From IMG/VR virus record IMGVR_UViG_3300008105_000021, positions 1 through 27,765 of that record: a stretch of DNA of 27,765 nucleotides; one strand, written 5' to 3'. Below are positions 10,913 to 27,765 of the stretch, piece after piece (position 1 is the first letter of the stretch; every line of letters starts with the position of its first letter). Under the pieces are notes generated by a model, which worked only from the letters and a program-made list of their open reading frames with translations, did no database searches and had not been told where the DNA came from. Position numbers and translations under genes: made by a program. The DNA comes from a virus.

Positions 10913-11237
10913 ATATTACAACCTGACGATGACGCAGGGGGAGCGGTTCTACCTGCGCGTTGAGAGTCTGGACCCGGCGACGGGGGCCAAGCAGAGTTAT
11001 GTCGGGTACACCGCCGTGCTCAAGGTGGCGACGGGGTGGAACGGGACGCAGGTGCTCTCGATCGCCGGGACGGTGGACACAACGGGTGTTGTCTTTGCCA
11101 TGAGCGAGTCGCTGACGCCGACGTACCCGGCGGGGAACTACGTCTTTGATATCTTCGCCGATGGGCCGGACGGGCCGTTGCCGCTGCTGCGCGGGCCGTT
11201 TGTGCTCCAGCCGAGCGCTGTAGGGGGTGCGGTATGA
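10899..11237 (+). CDS. Small beta-rich phage structural protein, fibre-associated
   Basis: The 112-residue product starts [19 protein letters not shown]. It has the pattern of a phage protein often found before tail-fibre genes: a [12 protein letters not shown] strand, [17 protein letters not shown], an [26 protein letters not shown] end. I read it as an Ig-like or BppU-N-like fold from pattern only. The ATG at 10899 is taken; 10887 (MGVP...) is also possible and either overlaps the previous gene. Its stop overlaps the start of the collagen-like fibre gene (ATGA), so the two are coupled. It probably belongs to the fibre or baseplate. Confidence 0.65.
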
Positions 11238-12856
11238 GTAGTGCGCCGACGAACTTCGTTATCAATGTTGTTAGCGCGACGCGGGTGGTGGCCGTGATCG
11301 ACAAGAATATCAGGGGAGAGGATGGTGCGCCGGGGCCTGCGGGCGGGCCTGCTGGCCCCGCTGGTCCTGCTGGGCCTGCTGGCCCCGCTGGTCCTCAAGG
11401 ACCCGAAGGGCCCGACGGGCCTGCGGGAACACCCGGTGCAACTGGCCCCGCCGGCGCGGCTGGTGCTACGGGTGCAACTGGTCCAACCGGGGCAACTGGT
11501 CCTGCTGGGGCAACTGGCCCGGCTGGTCCACAAGGTCCACAAGGTCCAGATGGTCCTGCTGGCCCGACGGGCGCGACGGGGCCTGCTGGGGCAACTGGCC
11601 CGGCTGGTCCACAAGGTCCAGATGGCCCCGCTGGCCCGACGGGCGCGACAGGGCCTGCTGGGGCAACTGGCCCGGCTGGTCCACAAGGTCCAGATGGCCC
11701 CGCTGGCCCGACGGGCGCGACGGGGCCTGCTGGCCCGATCACCACCGTCCCCATCAACCTCGGCGGCACCGGGCAGACGGACAAGACCGCTGCCTTCAAC
11801 GCCCTTGCTCCTGCAACCGATCCTCTGGTGCCTGTGCTTGACACTGGCTCAATGCTCACGCACGATGGTACAAACTGGGTGCTGATGGGAGGGAACAAAG
11901 TCCCTGGTGCGGTCCCCGCATATAACAATGAAGAAGCCGCTGCGTGGGCGCGGAATCCGAACGCGATTATGTGCGGCGACGGCAGCGACGGCGTTGTGGT
12001 GATCTCAACGAACACCACGCTTACGCGATCGATGAACTACGACAACTTGACTGTCCAAGCCGGGGCAACGTTGTTTGCCGCGGGGTTCCGCATCCACGTC
12101 AGGGGTGCCTTGGAGATCGATGCTGGCGGGGTGATCGAGAGCGGCTCAACGCTTCGTGCCGGTGGCAACGCGACTACTGCGACAGGTGGATCGGCTGGAT
12201 CAGGGGAAACAGCGGGCGAGTACGAGACGGCCAGCGGTGGTAGTGCCGGTGGTGCTGGTGTTATAACCGGCAACGGCGGAAATGCTGGTGCAGTTGGCGC
12301 CGTCACCGGCGTGGCATTGCTTGGCGGGTCTGGTGGTGCCGGTGGCACTGGTACCACCGGCACTCCCGGCACCGGCGGTGCCCCGGCTAATAGCACGTTC
12401 AGGTTCATCCGCGCGGTTCACCCCTTTGCCCAGATAACCTCCTCGGCCGTTAGTCTGCGAACTGGCACCGGGGGCCGAGGCGGTGGTGGTGGGTGCGGCA
12501 ACGGCACACAGGCCGGCGGCGGTGGTGGTGGTGGTGGCGGTGGTGGACGCTTCCTGTTTATTGCCGCCAACACGATACTCAACAATGGTGCTATCCGTTC
12601 CAGGGGTGGTGCTGGTGGCAACGGTGCCAACGGTCTCGGATCGGGAGCGGGCGGCGGTGGTGGCGGAGGGGGAGGCAGCGGCGGTGTAGTGCTGCTTGCA
12701 TACGGGTCGTATGCCGGAACCGCACCCGACGTTTCGGGTGGTGCTGGTGGTGCTGGTGGGCTTGGCAATGGTGGTGGCGGCAACGGTGGGGCTGGAACGG
12801 CCGGTGCTTCGGGGTTGGTGCTTCGCTGGAACATGGCCAAAGGGGTGTATGAATAA
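11234..12856 (+). CDS. Collagen-like, glycine-rich tail fibre / adhesin
   Basis: The 540-residue product has an N-terminal module (1-27), about 45 Gly-X-Y triplets (residues 28-168), a short globular part (170-280, with [16 protein letters not shown] and [10 protein letters not shown]), a strand-rich stretch near 275-305, and a very Gly-rich end (305-530) with runs of up to ten or more Gly. Gly-X-Y repeats form a triple-helical stalk in phage fibres. The end resembles the polyglycine type II receptor-binding tips known from S16 gp38-type adhesins. It is likely the host-recognition fibre, though placed before the terminase rather than after the tail genes. Three near-identical 72-base units make up part of the stalk. 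Confidence 0.85.
11517..11735 (+). repeat. 72-bp tandem coding repeat in collagen stalk
   Basis: About three near-identical units encode [18 protein letters not shown]-type blocks of 24 residues; the first has an extra GPQ triplet. Copy number is likely to vary by slippage and would change stalk length. Confidence 0.85.
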
Positions 12857-25013: not shown

Positions 25014-25113
25014 CACCACGCGGAGCGTCGGGGTACGCAGGGGAGGCGGGCGGGGACGCCCGCCCCACCGATGACCGCCCCACCGACGACCGGCCCGGAG
25101 GTCCGGGGTGCCC
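25014..25113 (+). repeat. Repeat cluster C-A-half-B
   Basis: A decayed C at 25014-25038, A at 25045-25069, a short A half, and B at 25092-25113, directly before element D copy 4. Confidence 0.85.
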
Positions 25114-25122
25114 GGAAAAGGG

Positions 25123-25157
25123 CGCGCGCAGCGATCGGGGATTCGGTCGATGGGGGG
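25123..25157 (+). promoter_or_regulatory. Element D, copy 4 (gene leader)
   Basis: GCGCGCGCAGC plus GATCGGGGATTCGGTCGATG (25133-25152), preceded by CCCGGAAAAGGG. The core ATG at 25150 is 12 bases before the ATG at 25162, the same spacing as in copies 1 and 2. Confidence 0.7.
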
Positions 25158-25161
25158 TGGC

Positions 25162-25989
25162 ATGAACACCTACACGACTCAGGTTGGGCTCAAAGAGCAG
25201 ACCGGCGCAGATATCGACGCGGCTGAGGCGGCTGTGGCGACGCTCGCTGCCGCTGATTATGCCGGTAACCGCAAAGACGTCAGCAACCGCATCTCGGCGG
25301 CACGCTATGAGCGCGGGCTGCAACGCGGCACGCTGACGCCCCAGGCCAACTTGCCCAGCCAGCACCAAGGGATGATCTCCTGGACCGAGGAAATGGTCGG
25401 CACGCCCGCCGCCGCGCTCTGGCCGCGCACGCTGATGGGAATGGGCTTTGTGCTCCCCCCTTCGCCGGGAACCTACCTGCCAGGTGCGATCTACGCGATC
25501 GCCGTAACCGGCACGCCGACGGTCTACCCCGGCTTTGTCGTGCAGACCGCAGGTGGCACCAAGAGGCTCCTGGTCGCTGGCGTGACGGCTGGCTTTGTCT
25601 ACGCGCACGTGCTGACGGCCGCAACGGACGTTCTCGCCGCCGACGCCTTCACCAGCCTTGCCGGTGAGCCGACGCAGTCGTTCACTGTGATTGCCCCCGG
25701 CATCGCCGATAAGAACGCGCCCGTCGGGTTTGTCTACCGCCCGCAGAGCGAGGTCTTCAACGGGACCGTCTCGATCGCATCGCCGGCGTACACCGTCGAG
25801 CGCAGGCTCGGCGGACAGCTCCACCGCATCTTTGCCGCACGCGGCACCGGTGGCCTGAGTTTCTCAACACTGAGTTTACCGGCATCCCCGTCTTTCAGGG
25901 TGGCGGATTCTCGCCGATCTCCGCCGGGTTCCTCTCTGGCGTTACACCGTACACCAGCGCGCCCAGGGTCGTGCAGGGGATGGGCCTGA
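25162..25989 (+). CDS. Tail tube protein, N-terminal part (frameshifted)
   Basis: The frame opens MNTYTTQVGLKEQTGADID and carries tail-tube-like text: RGLQRGTLTPQANLPSQHQGM, WPRTLMGMGFVL, then beta-rich segments to RRLGGQLHRIFAARGTGGL (about residue 232). Beyond that the reading becomes Ser/Arg/Pro-rich nonsense, while the neighbouring frame continues naturally as EFLNTEFTGIPVFQGGG and runs into the next entry. One base appears to be missing near 25855-25858. Intact, the protein would be about 415 residues. No slippery heptamer is present at the break. It is preceded by element D. Confidence 0.75.
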   Translation: MNTYTTQVGLKEQTGADIDAAEAAVATLAAADYAGNRKDVSNRISAARYERGLQRGTLTPQANLPSQHQGMISWTEEMVGTPAAALWPRTLMGMGFVLPPSPGTYLPGAIYAIAVTGTPTVYPGFVVQTAGGTKRLLVAGVTAGFVYAHVLTAATDVLAADAFTSLAGEPTQSFTVIAPGIADKNAPVGFVYRPQSEVFNGTVSIASPAYTVERRLGGQLHRIFAARGTGGLSFSTLSLPASPSFRVADSRRSPPGSSLALHRTPARPGSCRGWA

Positions 25990-26408
25990 CGCTGTCGAAC
26001 TATGCCGCCACGCCCACGGTCACCACGCCGCTGGCAACCGAATGCACCATCGACTTTGGCAACAGCGTGGACTTGCGCCCGAGCGTCGCCAACGTCAACG
26101 GGTTTGTCTCCGCCAGGATCACCGGGCGCAAGATCGTTGGCCGCATCGACCCCGAGCACATCCTGCCCGGCACCGGCAGGCTCGACTGGATCAACGAGAC
26201 GCTCAACTCTGACCGGCTCGTCTCGCTCTTTGCCTCCGTCGGTGCGCCGGCGGACCCGTATGGGCGAATCACCGTCTGTGGGCCGAAGGTGCGGCTGAGC
26301 GGGGATGTCGAGCCGGGTGATCGCAATGGCCGGGTGACGATGCCGCTGAACTTGGAGTTCATCGGTGATGCGGATGATGAGTTGTTTGTCTTCCATGTGA
26401 AGGTGTGA
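25971..26408 (+). CDS. Tail tube protein, C-terminal part (frameshifted)
   Basis: This is the 3' continuation of the tail tube gene in the frame one base back. The open frame extends upstream past 25860 without a start, so the GTG at 25971 is not a natural beginning. It carries TPLATECTIDFGNSVDLRPS, a central VSARITGRKIVGRIDPE strand pair and a final GRVTMPLNLEFIGDADDELFVFHV, typical of the second half of long phage tail tube proteins. Confidence 0.75.
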   Translation: MQGMGLTLSNYAATPTVTTPLATECTIDFGNSVDLRPSVANVNGFVSARITGRKIVGRIDPEHILPGTGRLDWINETLNSDRLVSLFASVGAPADPYGRITVCGPKVRLSGDVEPGDRNGRVTMPLNLEFIGDADDELFVFHVKV

Positions 26409-26521: not shown

Positions 26522-26594
26522 GGCCGTGTGCCAGAGTGGATGATGGGGCGGATTGCAAATCCGTTCAACGCAGGTTCGATTCCTGCCTCGGCCT
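26522..26594 (+). tRNA. tRNA-Cys (anticodon GCA)
   Basis: A full cloverleaf can be drawn. The acceptor is 26522-26528 with 26587-26593 (6 of 7 pairs, one T-T mismatch). The D stem is CCA/TGG (26531-26533 with 26544-26546). The anticodon stem is GCGGA/TCCGT around loop TTGCAAA, with anticodon GCA at 26555-26557. The T stem is GCAGG/CCTGC around TTCGATT. The discriminator is T at 26594 and CCA is not encoded. It lies within the late operon on the coding strand. Confidence 0.92.
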
Positions 26595-26622
26595 TTCACT
26601 ATTTATGCAAGGAGGTTTGGAT

Positions 26623-26988
26623 ATGAGTATTCGGATCGTCAACACGCCTGTGAATGTTCGGCTCAGTGGTGGGTTCCATGCCAGCGTCAAGCGGCTTGGG
26701 AACGTTGCGCGGGAGAAGTGCGCGACGCAGGCCCGGCTCGTCGACGGGGATACCGCCAGCCAGTTGCGGTTCCAGGGCCTGGCCGTGCGCGTCTGTGTTA
26801 CCAACATCACCGACGAGGCCAACAAGAGCGTCTACGAGGCGGTCAATGACCGAGCGCTGGGCAAGATTCTCTGTGAGCGCGTCTATGACGACCTGAACGA
26901 TGAGGACCTCGCGGCGATCATGGCCGCGTGCCTGGCCGGGTCGCTGAGTGAAGAGCAGGGAAAAGCGCAGCCCGGCTCGCCGGGCTGA
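26623..26988 (+). CDS. Tail assembly chaperone, gpG-like
   Basis: The 121-residue product starts at an ATG at 26623 with GGAGG seven bases upstream. It lies between tail tube and tape measure, the site of G/GT-type chaperones in siphoviruses. The protein is mostly soluble and mixed alpha/beta and ends with helical text (NDEDLAAIMAACLAGSLSEEQGK). Near its 3' end is a slippery heptamer (26958-26964), so a minority of ribosomes should shift -1 and make the longer fusion with the next frame. The chaperone would coat the tape measure protein during tail assembly, as in lambda. Confidence 0.8.
   Translation: MSIRIVNTPVNVRLSGGFHASVKRLGNVAREKCATQARLVDGDTASQLRFQGLAVRVCVTNITDEANKSVYEAVNDRALGKILCERVYDDLNDEDLAAIMAACLAGSLSEEQGKAQPGSPG
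26958..26987 (+). promoter_or_regulatory. Programmed -1 frameshift signal (GGGAAAA plus hairpin)
   Basis: The heptamer GGGAAAA (26958-26964) is read G GGA AAA in the gpG frame, the canonical X XXY YYZ form; lambda G uses GGGAAAG. Three bases later CAGCCCGG (26968-26975) pairs perfectly with CCGGGCTG (26980-26987) around loop CTCG. After the shift the frame continues as SAARLAGLIHDFRRRAAR into the downstream gene. The hairpin overlaps the zero-frame stop TGA (26986-26988). Confidence 0.85.
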
Positions 26989-27017
26989 TCCATGACTTTC
27001 GGCGGCGTGCCGCCCGC

Positions 27018-27380
27018 ATGGCCGACCCAACGCAAGAGCCTGTACCAATGGACCTCTGCCCTGAATGCGGCGAGGACGGGAAGGACGCGGAGGGTCGGCC
27101 TTGCCGCACGTGCGGGGGACTCGGGGCCGTGCCCGAACCCGAGCCGGACCTGCCCGAAGAGATCGCAATCGAGTTTGCCGCAGTGCTGGATGTGCTCGGA
27201 ATCTTTGAGGCCAATGGGCCGTCGGCAGTTCTGGACCTGGTCGGTGGAAGGCGGGATGGGTTTGACCCAGTAGGGCTCGCGGCGATCAGGGCGGTGCAGG
27301 GTGAACTGAACAGGCTGGAGCAGGTGGATAGGCAGGTGGAGGCGGAAGAGCAGAGGCGGAAGATGAGGGTGAAGAAGTAG
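27018..27380 (+). CDS. gpT-like extension of the tail chaperone, zinc-ribbon bearing
   Basis: The frame is open from 26952, and its natural entry is the -1 shift at 26958-26964, giving a fusion of about 252 residues from 26623. An ATG at 27018 (MADPTQEPVPMDL) could allow separate translation but lacks a good ribosome site. Residues 14-33 from that ATG hold CPECGEDGKDAEGRPCRTCGG, a two-CXXC zinc-ribbon-like knuckle. The rest is helical and acidic, with a basic end. A role in recruiting tape measure to the tail tube is inferred from the lambda G/GT system. Confidence 0.7.
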   Translation: MADPTQEPVPMDLCPECGEDGKDAEGRPCRTCGGLGAVPEPEPDLPEEIAIEFAAVLDVLGIFEANGPSAVLDLVGGRRDGFDPVGLAAIRAVQGELNRLEQVDRQVEAEEQRRKMRVKK

Positions 27381-27601: not shown

Positions 27602-27765
27602 ATGAGCACGAAGGTACTTTCCATCACGCTCAAGACGATCGACCAGTCGACCGCGCCGATCCGGGGGGTCATTAGCCAGGTCGCTAAACTGACCAGCTCG
27701 ATCACCTCGGCGATGACCAGCGTGCGGACGGTGGTGGGTGTCTTTGCCGCCAGTGTGGTCGGTGG
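27602..27765 (+). CDS. Tape measure protein, N-terminal fragment
   Basis: The frame starts MSTKVLSITLKTIDQSTAPI and runs off the window. The text (LKTIDQSTAPIRGVISQVAKLTSSI, then a hydrophobic VVGVFAASVVG) is typical of phage tail tape measure N-termini, and the gene follows the G/GT chaperones as in lambda H. An AAGGGGA ribosome site lies about six bases upstream. Confidence 0.8.
   Translation, partial: MSTKVLSITLKTIDQSTAPIRGVISQVAKLTSSITSAMTSVRTVVGVFAASVVG

Follow-up and report, generated by a model that had tools for sequence, protein, structure and literature searches.

A gene pair in the window, that is, the whole 27,765-nt (27.8 kb) virus record IMGVR_UViG_3300008105_000021, very probably encodes tail assembly chaperones through a programmed -1 ribosomal frameshift, giving the two products G and GT. 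The original prediction had proposed a lambda-like G/GT frameshift from a GGGAAAA heptamer in the right phase, a perfect 8-bp stem with a CTCG loop that begins three bases past the heptamer and overlaps the zero-frame TGA, and a shifted frame running uninterrupted to 27380. All three elements were borne out to the base (Table 1), and the reading itself is supported by the heptamers of six out of six homologous loci, by the gene order, and, less firmly, by the predicted fold of G. The heptamer is read as CA_G GGA AAA, an X_XXY_YYZ arrangement, and is the sole in-phase slippery heptamer across the G reading frame. The -1 frame is open from 26952 to 27380, with the heptamer close to its beginning, and the heptamer end is 21 nt from the zero-frame stop, the G-T overlap spanning 11 codons. 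Gene G follows a strong Shine-Dalgarno sequence, AAGGAGGT, and the predicted GT fusion is 252 residues long, with ...EEQGK/SAAR... at the junction.

Table 1 Features of the G/T locus and its surroundings in the window.
Feature	Coordinates	Strand	Basis or remark
Major tail protein gene	25108..26408	+	two frames in the window record, 22-nt deletion relative to sister contigs
tRNA-Cys(GCA)	26522..26594	+	Rfam, 55.8 bits; follows the major tail protein gene and precedes G
Shine-Dalgarno region, AAGGAGGT, ahead of the G start	26604..26622	+	sequence
Zero-frame gene G, putative tail assembly chaperone, 121 aa	26623..26988	+	TGA at 26986-26988
Slippery heptamer G_GGA_AAA, predicted -1 frameshift	26958..26964	+	counterparts in the five relatives
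-1 frame T extension, 140 codons	26958..27380	+	CxxC...CxxC zinc-ribbon-like motif at 27057-27113
8-bp hairpin, candidate stimulator, loop CTCG, 3-nt spacer	26968..26987	+	predicted local fold
Probable tape measure protein gene, start	27602..27765	+	directly after T; truncated by the contig end

The window is phage or prophage DNA whose host belongs to the Phycisphaeraceae (Planctomycetota), and near-identical DNA occurs in two further IMG/VR contigs and in the MAG contig JAJTGZ010000058.1, named "Phycisphaeraceae bacterium". The genes upstream form a lambda-type module, with a GpA-type terminase, a lambda-family portal, and an S49 protease fused to a capsid protein. The gene order runs terminase, lambda-type portal, S49-capsid and, further on, major tail protein, tRNA-Cys, G, T, and the start of the tape measure gene. 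We regard this last gene as a probable tape measure because it stands directly after T, as does a tape measure protein or its homologue in four relatives (G035, G404, G436, and G451).

Neither G nor T has a convincing match in Pfam or PHROG, and no tail-chaperone model was found by sequence; the annotation is therefore supplied by the anatomy of the locus. An AlphaFold prediction for G (pLDDT 78.7) shows some resemblance to known tail assembly chaperones. A Foldseek comparison with 350,542 PDB chains ranks HK97 tail assembly chaperone 2OB9 first, albeit as a weak match (E 0.19, TM 0.41-0.45), and several BFVD viral models annotated as "tail assembly chaperone" or "tape measure chaperone" match with probabilities of 0.9-1.0 and E-values of 0.005-0.06. 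The gene order fits a G/GT tail assembly chaperone, and the predicted fold of G is compatible with one. The model of T has no match to known structures. The T sequence of the window contains a CxxC...CxxCGGxG motif, and such a zinc-ribbon-like Cys motif is present in T of five of the six family members (the window, L059, L060, L173, and L174) and absent in G035; its similarity to the DnaJ Cys-rich domain and to other zinc-finger models is weak and sub-threshold. A tRNA-Cys(GCA) gene stands shortly ahead of the T domain bearing this motif.

Five diverged Phycisphaeraceae prophages (G035, G436, G451, G402, and G404) carry loci homologous to that of the window, and they were located via portal or tail-protein profile similarity, with no use of the heptamer. 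L014 is the true G035 homologue, L012 and L013 being weak matches of the first class-wide search; L089 and L090, whose portal is 40% identical, stop short of the G-T region. Scans of viral contigs with G-T, capsid, portal-pair, and tail-protein queries returned near-identical contigs only, or nothing. In six-way alignments, identity to the window is 17-28% for the G proteins and 18-32% for the T proteins. Exactly one in-phase heptamer is found in the G-T overlap of every one of the six loci: GGGAAAC in G035 and G404, AAAAAAC in G436, CCCAAAC in G451, and GGGAAAA in G402, as in the window. YYY is AAA in all six, and the other letters differ between lineages, which indicates that the signal persisted through changes of its bases. 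In a background of 10,697 codon positions from the other genes of the window phage and its relatives, in-phase XXXYYYZ heptamers make up 0.24% of codons and those with YYY = AAA 0.02%, so that the probability of finding one in the 11-codon overlap of the window is 0.026, or 0.002 for the AAA type. The product over the six homologous overlaps is 1.2e-7, or 3e-14 if AAA is required, figures which are rough because the lineages share ancestry. The window heptamer is clearly not a chance occurrence, and the loss of phase in relatives that had been named as evidence against a programmed shift was not seen, each of the six loci keeping one heptamer at the G/T boundary.

The hairpin next to the stop calls for a more cautious interpretation. 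The stem CAGCCCGG-CTCG-CCGGGCTG consists of eight Watson-Crick pairs, closed by C26968-G26987, belongs to the predicted local fold, and overlaps with its 3' arm the T and G of the zero-frame TGA. Perfect 8-bp stems with a loop of 3-6 nt that start within 9 nt occur at 0.36% of coding positions. This rarity speaks against a reading in which the frameshift is programmed and the hairpin is an idle by-product of G+C-rich coding, the rate being set by nothing but the heptamer, whether or not the nearby stop contributes. When the minimum free energy of the 50 nt downstream was compared with coding background, the window fell in the top 1.8% of stability, and G436 and G451 proved independently very stable (top 0.2% and <0.1%, with dinucleotide-shuffle z-scores of -2.1 and -2.8), which again argues against an idle hairpin. 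On the other side, the shuffle z-score of the window is only -0.6 to -1.4, unremarkable for a GC-rich stretch, G+C hairpins abound in the window, among them the 37 copies of a repeat described below, and G035, G402, and G404 have no comparable stem, their downstream stability being ordinary against the coding background. Stable 3' structure is thus over-represented, being present in three of the six members (window, G436, and G451), yet it does not occur at one position, and a family of six is too small a sample for judging what the stem does. The original prediction had also named conservation of the stem as a check; in the five relatives the hairpin is not conserved by position. By itself, the hairpin is only suggestive of function, and we consider an idle hairpin a serious possibility, if somewhat short of probable. 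A terminator was rejected as an explanation of the stem, which is not followed by a U-run, with no terminator-like sites found.

Stop-adjacent stems occur at the G-T junction of other phages as well. At L069, L142, L147, and L158, which belong to phages with a lambda-type portal, the heptamer A_AAA_AAC is followed immediately by a stop and, 2-5 nt on, by a very stable stem (z -3.7 to -5.8). These four loci have both elements and so refute the idea that a site has either an adjacent stop or a hairpin, an idea which came from the six members of the window family, where stable structure is found only with a stop 21-81 nt away. In the L147 group, which is large and separate from the window family (loci L175-L253, given as match starts, e.g. 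L147:10245), AAAAAAC is present in 60 of 60 distinct sequences and the stop comes directly after it in 58; the search patterns favoured the peptide KKLI and not the codons behind it. A 10-pair stem lies 6 nt past this heptamer; across 57 distinct sequences, 95.4% of its cells hold a standard pair, a share that drops to 26-45% when the stem is slid by 1-3 columns, and such retention in another G-T family weighs against the idle hairpin. In ten cells both partners have changed, a number that none of 500 shuffles reached, albeit in rows that are related and in a stretch that also encodes a conserved peptide. The L147 group has a distant match to gp42/43 of Rhodobacter phage RcTiptonus, annotated as a tail assembly chaperone. 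Its Cys-rich T family is similar to that of the window in having a lambda-type portal, a K-K-L start of the T frame at the heptamer, Cys pairs, and a stop-adjacent stem, whereas it differs in the position of the stop, which lies between heptamer and stem (6-nt spacer) in the L147 group and inside the 3' arm in the window. The stop-adjacent stem is thus a design that recurs at G-T junctions, and the window version is one variant.

The short spacer and the stop-overlapping stem had been described as differing from common examples, which holds only in part. As drawn, the spacer of 3 nt does fall below the usual 5-9 nt (PMC5009743); nevertheless, similar cases exist elsewhere, since G436 also folds with a 3-nt spacer and L069 with a 2-nt spacer and a stem starting inside the stop codon. 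The effective spacer would be about 5-6 nt if two or three basal pairs open.

We propose that, in a programmed frameshift at this site, most ribosomes would translate gene G to the TGA at 26986, while in a minority the tRNA-Gly and tRNA-Lys on GGA AAA would move one base back to GGG AAA, and these slipped ribosomes would continue in the -1 frame to 27380 to yield the GT fusion. Ribosomes at the heptamer are probably slowed by the stop-covering hairpin, which would favour slippage; given the 3-nt spacer, the lowest pairs would need to melt first, so that about five G-C pairs would face the mRNA entry channel. If the roles are those known from lambda, tape measure protein would be coated by the G part, and the T part would recruit the major tail protein. 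The stronger joint claim that the stop and the short-spacer hairpin act together, with termination at the TGA and slippage competing, and that T is a zinc-binding module unlike the lambda T domain, appears unlikely to us.

The T frame of the window has its first ATG at 27018, 20 codons past the heptamer and about 30 nt past the G stop, a position that would suit two separate genes, with re-initiation past the G stop yielding T from this ATG or from that at 27048, and with a merely coincidental heptamer. However, on inspection of the sequence neither ATG is preceded by a Shine-Dalgarno sequence, and in G451 the T frame has no ATG, GTG, or TTG for 84 codons past the heptamer, a stretch in which both the Cys motif and the conserved AAR lie. 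None of these codons occurs for 33 codons in G035 either, and T could therefore not be made in these two phages by ordinary initiation. The similarity between T-frame proteins itself starts at the heptamer (K..AAR motif): in tblastn, the alignment of the G035 T frame with G451 begins at residue 2, which is the Lys encoded in the heptamer (E=2e-13), an E-value that refers to one genome, as do those of all single-genome searches. With a heptamer in six of six lineages, separate genes are very improbable. Judged from the reading frames, T would not be expressed from a start of its own and would depend on the shift.

A mutation or sequencing error within a single gene might also break a frame, and in the window record a 22-nt deletion does interrupt the frame of the major tail protein gene. 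At G-T, however, such an error is scarcely credible, because two other viral assemblies and the MAG contig encode the identical arrangement, and five diverged homologues have the break in the corresponding position, each accompanied by a heptamer. Transcriptional rather than ribosomal slippage is just as remote, the window having a run of only four A, generally considered too few for a polymerase to slip on, and the relatives using GGGAAAC and CCCAAAC.

In the major tail protein gene, the frame is unbroken in the MAG contig, and the break in the window is either a variant or an assembly fault; a second programmed shift was ruled out there, the break being the 22-nt deletion relative to two sister assemblies. 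A nearby 36-nt stretch of the same gene is also missing in one sister assembly.

The window contains another element, a 26-bp hairpin repeat, AGGCGGGCGGGGACGCCCGCCCCACC, with an 8-bp stem and a GGGA loop. Allowing up to three mismatches in its 20-bp core, we counted 37 copies between 334 and 27557 (e.g. at 1915, 6682, 14908, 19497, and 27433), all on the + strand, where 0.07 were expected. Sixteen copies lie within predicted genes, including those for the terminase, S49-capsid, and primase, and 14 of these share one reading frame, AGGDARPT. The repeat is concentrated in the window phage: its core has 75 matches in the entire 2.6-Mb MAG, most of them in the phage contig C83 and in C103 and C12, and none in the five relatives; the exact 26-mer occurs in just two other IMG/VR contigs, once each. 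The window repeat resembles palindromic elements that are inserted in frame into genes, such as those of Rickettsia. With its 37 one-strand copies, the repeat may be more unusual than the frameshift. Another observation concerns a single predicted protein (11234-12856) that shows collagen-like Gly-X-Y repeats followed by Gly-rich stretches.

The lambda G/GT mechanism is well known, and the window site is real but ordinary in kind. In SEA-PHAGES genomes used by a prediction tool, 2,397 tail-chaperone frameshifts are annotated, with a mean heptamer-to-stop distance of 26 nt (PMC10885494). A search of open-access full text on frameshifting in planctomycete prophages gave nothing on point. The heptamers of the planctomycete-phage family overlap the set of a system whose hosts are archaea (PMC5009743), a likeness that concerns the heptamers. 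With HK97-type tail assembly chaperones, the likeness is that 2OB9 is the best PDB fold match of the G model, although this match is weak (E 0.19) and the identity is 12%. The closest parallel is lambda G/GT (GGGAAAG), which has a -1 shift at G_GGA_AAx shortly before G ends, in a gene pair flanked by the major tail and tape measure genes, and, as in the window, a short zero-frame tail and an open -1 frame leading to GT. The two systems differ in that no sequence homology was detected with the libraries used, the last heptamer base is A in the window and G in lambda, the window stem overlaps the stop, and T bears the zinc-ribbon-like Cys motif in five of the six members of the window family. 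The comparative evidence presented here widens the range of the lambda G/GT frameshift to include Phycisphaeraceae phages, and six diverged sites that combine one heptamer design with variable downstream structure should be useful in asking whether bacterial G-T sites need a stem.
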